A stretch of 64,000 bases of DNA from Methanothrix thermoacetophila PT (GTDB taxonomy: Archaea; Halobacteriota; Methanosarcinia; Methanotrichales; Methanotrichaceae), in the NCBI RefSeq assembly GCF_000014945.1, contig NC_008553.1, forward strand, positions 1,302,001 to 1,366,000. The letters are read 5' to 3'. The first letter of the stretch is position 1; each line of letters begins with the position of its first letter. The translations under genes were made by a program, and so were the position numbers. Shown here in pieces: positions 31,653-32,030 of this stretch. Under the pieces are notes generated by a model. The model searched no databases. It was not told where the DNA came from and worked only from the letters and a program-made list of their open reading frames with translations.

Positions 31653-31660
31653 GATATAAA
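31653..31660 (+). promoter_or_regulatory. TATA box of the tRNA-Ser gene
   Basis: GATATAAA about 27-34 bp before the tRNA 5' end, with purine-rich CAACA directly upstream as a possible BRE. Correct spacing for archaeal transcription starting a few bases before the tRNA. Confidence 0.6.
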
Positions 31661-31686
31661 CCATCAGCTCTCTCAGCTGAAGTCAT

Positions 31687-31839
31687 GCCGGGGTGGCAGA
31701 GCGGACAAGCTCTGGGCCGTGCTCCAGCGGCAGAGGTCCATACGCGGCAGGCTCGAGACCTGTTGTCCCTTCCAGGGACGCTTGGGTTCAAAATGGCGCG
31801 GACGCCGAGTCCACCATGAAAATCCCAACCCCGGCGCCA
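31687..31839 (+). tRNA. tRNA-Ser (anticodon CGA) interrupted in D arm and T loop
   Basis: Acceptor GCCGGGG (31687) pairs with CCCCGGC (31829-31835), followed by G73 and encoded CCA. Anticodon stem GCAGG/CCTGT closes loop CTCGAGA (anticodon CGA at 31754-31756). The long variable arm GTCCC-TTCC-AGGGAC and the G73 discriminator fit serine. Two insertions break the rest. About 30 nt lies in the T loop between stems TTGGG (31782-31786) and CCCAA (31824-31828), folding as ATGG/CCAT over GGAC/GTCC. About 32 nt lies in the D arm (roughly 31712-31743), folding as CTCT/AGAG over GCCG/CGGC. Removing both leaves ~91 nt, the normal size. The T-loop insertion is clear; the D-arm boundaries are approximate. 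Confidence 0.72.
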
Positions 31840-31883: not shown

Positions 31884-32030
31884 ATGGCCAGATTTTCAGA
31901 GGCAGAAAATCGAGTTCTGAATGTCAAGATATGCATGCGATGCAATGCGCGCAATCCGATCAGGGCAACACGCTGCCGTAAATGCAGGTACAAGGGCCTC
32001 AGGATGAAGTCCAAGGAGAGCAGAGGATAG
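31884..32030 (+). CDS. rpl40e: 50S ribosomal protein eL40
   Basis: 48 residues beginning [20 protein letters not shown], with a four-cysteine zinc ribbon (CMRC at 17-20 and CRKC at 31-34) and the basic tail [10 protein letters not shown]. The sequence is nearly universal for archaeal eL40, a large-subunit protein. A GGGAGAG site precedes the ATG. GGGP synthase starts 8 bp after its stop, so it heads an operon with the lipid gene and the M24 peptidase, 44 bp downstream of the tRNA-Ser. Confidence 0.95.

Follow-up and report, generated by a model that had tools for sequence, protein, structure and literature searches.

The window analysed here, a 64,000-nt stretch of DNA covering positions 1302001-1366000 of the 1,879,471-bp single-contig genome of Methanothrix thermoacetophila PT, carries at 31687-31839 on the forward strand a tRNA-Ser(CGA) precursor with two predicted introns, one in the D loop and the other in the T loop. 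The features of the locus, in window coordinates, are as follows:

31653..31662, forward strand: TATA-box-like promoter element, AGATATAAAC, ~30 nt before tRNA position 1
31687..31708, forward strand: exon 1, 5' strand of the acceptor and the D arm to position 21, GCCGGGGUGGCAGAGCGGACAA, near-invariant in the 38 Methanotrichaceae genes
31709..31741, forward strand: intron 1 (D loop), 33 nt, tRNA position ~21/22, GCUCUGGGCCGUGCUCCAGCGGCAGAGGUCCAU
31742..31792, forward strand: exon 2, 3' strand of the D stem, anticodon arm (CGA), long variable arm, 5' strand of the T stem, and the T loop through position 59
31793..31822, forward strand: intron 2 (T loop), 30 nt, tRNA position 59/60, AUGGCGCGGACGCCGAGUCCACCAUGAAAA
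31823..31839, forward strand: exon 3, U60, 3' strands of the T stem and the acceptor, then G73 and the encoded CCA
31884..32030, forward strand: 50S ribosomal protein L40e-like gene, 48 aa
32039..32806, forward strand: geranylgeranylglyceryl phosphate synthase-like (GGGP synthase-like) gene

Both protein-coding genes come from the ORF list, and their names are ones we presume from recognition of the sequences; the first keeps the same gene order in the same-genus loci and the second served as a synteny anchor. The nearest named relatives of a neighbouring gene are in Methanothrix (Methanosaeta) assemblies, with ~90% protein identity. The TATA-like element is kept in all six same-genus genomes, where the sequence farther upstream diverges, and, judging from the usual position of archaeal promoters, it presumably acts as the promoter.

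An earlier sequence-only reading of this DNA had described a tRNA-Ser(CGA) interrupted in the D arm and T loop and otherwise complete. The sequence is as described, with both introns located and with the acceptor (GCCGGGG/CCCCGGC), anticodon stem (GCAGG/CCUGU), anticodon loop (CUCGAGA, anticodon CGA), long variable arm, T stem (UUGGG/CCCAA), G73 and encoded CCA all intact. The insert sizes given then, ~30 nt in the T loop and ~32 nt in the D arm, are refined to exactly 30 and 33 nt, and the helices through which each insert was said to fold on its own are present. Removing both was expected to leave a normal tRNA of ~91 nt; the predicted mature product measures 90 nt including CCA, and the 90-mer spliced in silico at both sites is called tRNA-Ser(cga) by ARAGORN. 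The same program made no Ser(CGA) call on the precursor or on either half-spliced form. Within the window, ARAGORN and Rfam both miss the unspliced gene and both find two other tRNAs; genes of this kind in methanogens can thus escape the standard tRNA-finding programs. The end of exon 1 is set by the 5' bulge AA|G together with L220, an outgroup gene that is uninterrupted here. In the T loop, every cut within the AAAAU repeats yields the identical product UUCAAAU, and the splice product is therefore unambiguous. The spliced D stem contains an A12.C23 mismatch, which is also found in the intronless outgroup gene.

Related loci were gathered through the downstream GGGP synthase-like gene and by searching with the spliced tRNA. 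Both introns are present in all 38 distinct genes recovered from Methanotrichaceae, a family of 11 genera. Mean identity across the family is 97% for the exons, 51% for the D intron and 61% for the T intron; within the genus (six genomes), the D intron does not vary and differences in the T intron are confined to its apex. The D intron ranges from 31 to 47 nt across the family (33 nt in the window), or from 33 to 49 nt (35 nt in the window) if two exon-side bulge bases are counted, and the T intron from 30 to 44 nt. A six-base loop of the form G....A (GAGAAA, GCGATA or GCTATA, e.g., in L060, L074 and L083) frequently caps the T intron, and this apical loop is more alike between genes than the surrounding stem. 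A 3-4-3 core is found at the D site of all 38 genes, with GGAC facing GUCC, GUUC or GUCU, all of which pair, giving the family consensus GGAC:GU[CU][CU] with 3-nt bulges; the T site combines 3-nt bulges with a helix of 3-4 bp, again in 38 of 38. For each intron, the helices pair better within than between genes, a result reached by none of 10,000 permutations; shared ancestry is not fully removed by this procedure, and permutations within clades, of which 0 to 31 in 10,000 reach the observed value, point in the same direction. Collectively, these comparisons argue that the intron helices are maintained by compensating changes.

The two sites differ in geometry. In the window, the T site has the strict 3-4-3 bulge-helix-bulge form, with opposite 3-nt bulges, a 4-bp central helix and helices on both the exon and intron sides: the exon helix UUGGG:CCCAA is followed by the 3' bulge AAU, the central helix UUCA:UGAA, the 5' bulge AAA and the intron helix UGG:CCA, beyond which lies an inner helix, GGAC:GUCC. 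In most relatives the central helix consists of 3 bp plus A.G. The D site has the 3-nt/4-bp/3-nt core, with GGAC:GUCC between the bulges AAG and AUA and then the intron helix CUCUG:CAGAG. It departs from the strict form in that no exon-side helix directly adjoins the 3' bulge: at a 3-nt bulge the next pair is C.C, and at a 4-nt bulge only 2 bp (GC:GC) form. An alternative exon helix, GCG:CGC, comes with a 3-bp central helix and a 4-nt bulge. With the proper exon-side helix missing or reduced to 2 bp, the D site is a relaxed form, on the exon side only. The expectation that splicing would need an endonuclease tolerant of relaxed sites thus stands for the exon side of the D-loop site and falls away for the T-loop site, which has the strict motif.

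Of 20,000 shuffles per intron, 6 of the D intron and 7 of the T intron matched the splice-site geometry. The rarity of this geometry in shuffles and its recurrence in all 38 distinct family genes show that the inserts are not due to chance. Minimum-energy folding was discarded as proof of the splice motif: in nearest-neighbour folding, the two-site bulge-helix-bulge fold lies 3-9 kcal/mol above the minimum-energy fold, and since folding does not select the motif, the argument for it rests on comparative evidence. At window positions 31697-31714, CAGAGC in the 5' exon can pair perfectly with GCUCUG in the intron, and the resulting hairpin would be an alternative to the splice-site fold, in competition with it; it is present in the window's genus and was seen in none of the other genera whose folds were printed.

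The EndA type was among the points that the sequence-only reading had proposed for inspection. The genome encodes a single EndA, with two PF01974 domains (351-357 aa), whose best match among solved structures is 1r0v/2gjw, of the alpha'2 type, which we take to be the EndA of Archaeoglobus fulgidus. A variant of the A. fulgidus enzyme, 3p1y, has ~10 extra residues between FYG and LSL, which we read as the inserted Crenarchaea-specific loop (CSL); the Methanothrix enzyme has the wild-type length. None of the 19 Methanotrichaceae enzymes carries an insertion at the CSL site; a loop inserted beside the active site, Crenarchaea-specific or ARMAN-specific, is the mark of broad-specificity EndAs. By sequence, the Methanothrix EndA is thus assigned to the alpha'2 (fused homodimer-type) class without a Crenarchaea-specific loop, an outcome that makes the finding more interesting. 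The A. fulgidus EndA belongs to the narrow class, and insertion of the Crenarchaea-specific loop broadens its specificity (PMC6379350); alpha'2 enzymes are described as narrow (PMC6379350, PMC4033280). According to another account, in contrast, homodimeric enzymes can additionally cut a 3-nt bulge with a 4-bp helix and an internal loop (PMC8707768). The D site offers this very geometry, which makes its cleavage by an alpha'2 EndA plausible, if unsettled.

Outgroups within the same class bear on both the boundaries and the origin of the introns. Once the rearranged copies of two f4 genomes are set aside, the genes examined in families f3 and f4 carry the D intron and lack the T intron, as does the one gene from f6. 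The f5 gene L220 has neither intron: its D arm, GGACUAACGCGG, is uninterrupted, and its continuous sequence, GCAGAGCGGACUAACGCGG, differs by 1 base from the splice product predicted for the window. The D exon boundary is thereby fixed independently. In f2, the only intron is in the anticodon loop. The T intron was absent outside Methanotrichaceae in the genomes examined, and gene searches in two genera (g18 and g19) matched nothing. We infer that f5 is Methanoperedens-like and that g18 and g19 are Methanosarcinaceae-like. The simplest series, read from intron presence and absence in these genes, would run from no intron to the D intron and then to D plus T in Methanotrichaceae, and such a series within one class would order two intron gains; the alternative, loss of introns in f5 and f2, is compatible with the same distribution. 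Partial or repeated copies of tRNA-Ser(CGA) in another family (L212 on contig 106 of G086 and L213 on contig 178 of G125) adjoin foreign sequence or are split by it, an arrangement suggestive of a gene that serves as a target for integration.

These results make it very probable that the locus is a working tRNA-Ser(CGA) gene, present in one copy, whose two non-canonical introns are spliced out by protein enzymes; this is the central reading proposed from the sequence, now supported by the product of intron removal, the single copy and conservation in 38 of 38 genes. A different outcome, in which only the T-loop intron is removed and the D insert is retained, enlarging the D arm of the mature tRNA, could appeal to the lack of a proper exon-side helix at the D site and to the strictness ascribed to alpha'2 enzymes (PMC6379350). 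We nevertheless regard it as very unlikely: the D insert varies by 16 nt in length and has an identity of ~51%, yet retains the splice core throughout the family; precisely this D arm, free of the insert, is found in close outgroups; and ARAGORN calls Ser(CGA) only when both inserts are out.

The sequence-only reading had named another intact tRNA-Ser(CGA) gene as the observation that would point to a pseudogene. No other Ser(CGA) was found among 46 tRNA matches in the genome, and a DNA search of the genome returned only pieces of the window's gene and no second copy. A decaying copy disrupted by insertions, with UCG read by Ser(UGA) through wobble, would fit the failure of standard tRNA finders to detect the gene and the presence of a Ser(TGA) gene in the genome. 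Against this stand the near-invariant exons over 11 genera, with both inserts in every recovered copy, the pairing maintained within the introns, the single Ser(CGA) gene and the normal use of UCG (31 of the 230 serine codons counted in nine ORFs of the window). On the strength of the single gene, the ultraconserved exons and the preserved intron pairing, we reject the pseudogene explanation as extremely improbable. Removal by an activity other than EndA, or inserts that are self-splicing or mobile elements, could draw on the weak exon helix of the D site and is scarcely credible given inserts well below the size of group I or II introns, an EndA-substrate geometry in a genome that encodes EndA, and syntenic, vertically inherited copies; group I/II and mobile introns were rejected on size and on this mode of inheritance.

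Under the functional, two-intron reading, the precursor would be transcribed from the TATA promoter, and the alpha'2 EndA would cut between nucleotides 2 and 3 of each 3-nt bulge, at AA|G and AU|A in the D loop and at AA|A and AA|U in the T loop. The exons would then be joined by a tRNA ligase, in archaea generally RtcB, into a 90-nt tRNA reading UCG.

The predicted introns are of a known kind, the non-canonical archaeal tRNA intron, in an unexpected lineage and enzyme context. Introns at non-canonical bulge-helix-bulge positions, including 20/21, 22/23 and 59/60, are known in crenarchaea, above all in Thermoproteales (PMC4090602). Those of Methanothrix resemble them in being short and of similar length, in their EndA-type geometry, in occurring two per tRNA and in the position 59/60, which is on the published list. 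In contrast to the crenarchaeal cases, they are found in a methanogen with an alpha'2 EndA devoid of the Crenarchaea-specific loop, and they are conserved by vertical descent at fixed sites instead of being transposed from one tRNA to another. Euryarchaeal tRNA introns have been stated to be single and at the canonical position (PMC4090602), and the multi-intron tRNAs reported for euryarchaea besides ARMAN are those of Methanopyrus kandleri and Methanothermobacter thermautotrophicus (PMC4033280). These, too, are methanogens with more than one intron in a tRNA; M. kandleri differs in having a heterotetrameric EndA of constrained broad specificity (PMC6379350). One report ascribes non-canonical introns to "three thermophilic euryarchaeal methanogens" (PMC3218864), and this very species may be among them. 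Korarchaeum cryptofilum has been presented as the only archaeon combining an alpha2 endonuclease with non-canonical tRNA introns, a case of tRNA-endonuclease co-evolution given in a passage on an enzyme-specific loop (PMC4033280). Methanotrichaceae likewise pair a homodimer-type EndA with non-canonical introns, and in this family the enzymes have no insertion at the CSL site. The literature searched yielded no description of the family-wide pattern together with a loop-less alpha'2 enzyme; the individual gene or its introns may already be catalogued in a database or an earlier survey.

On balance, we favour the view that non-canonical introns, including one at a D-loop site lacking a proper exon-side helix, are natural substrates of the loop-less alpha'2 EndAs found in the class around Methanothrix, and that this was established before Methanotrichaceae split from their relatives with the D intron, the T intron arriving later. 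Reviews link non-canonical tRNA introns to broad-specificity EndA types (PMC4090602, PMC4033280); if true, our proposal would contradict the view that diversity of intron position required prior acquisition of such an enzyme. A family-wide two-intron tRNA with what is apparently the sole UCG-matching anticodon, alongside a loop-less alpha'2 enzyme, makes the co-evolution idea directly testable.

Two other tRNAs of the genome deserve mention. No tRNA-Tyr(GTA) turns up in the Rfam tRNA search of the genome, not even with a permissive cut-off, and two patterns spanning the anticodon to the T arm gave unrelated matches only; the best-looking of these, L237, was discarded, with no tRNA around it. 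A non-canonical interruption is a possibility for this gene as well. tRNA-Arg(CCT) (G000:C1, ~79951-80074; L047, L249) has a ~50-nt insertion in its D loop, removal of which leaves a sequence called tRNA-Arg(cct) by ARAGORN; within the family, interrupted versions occur in the same genus and in genomes G002, G004 and G006, while most other genera have a continuous gene.
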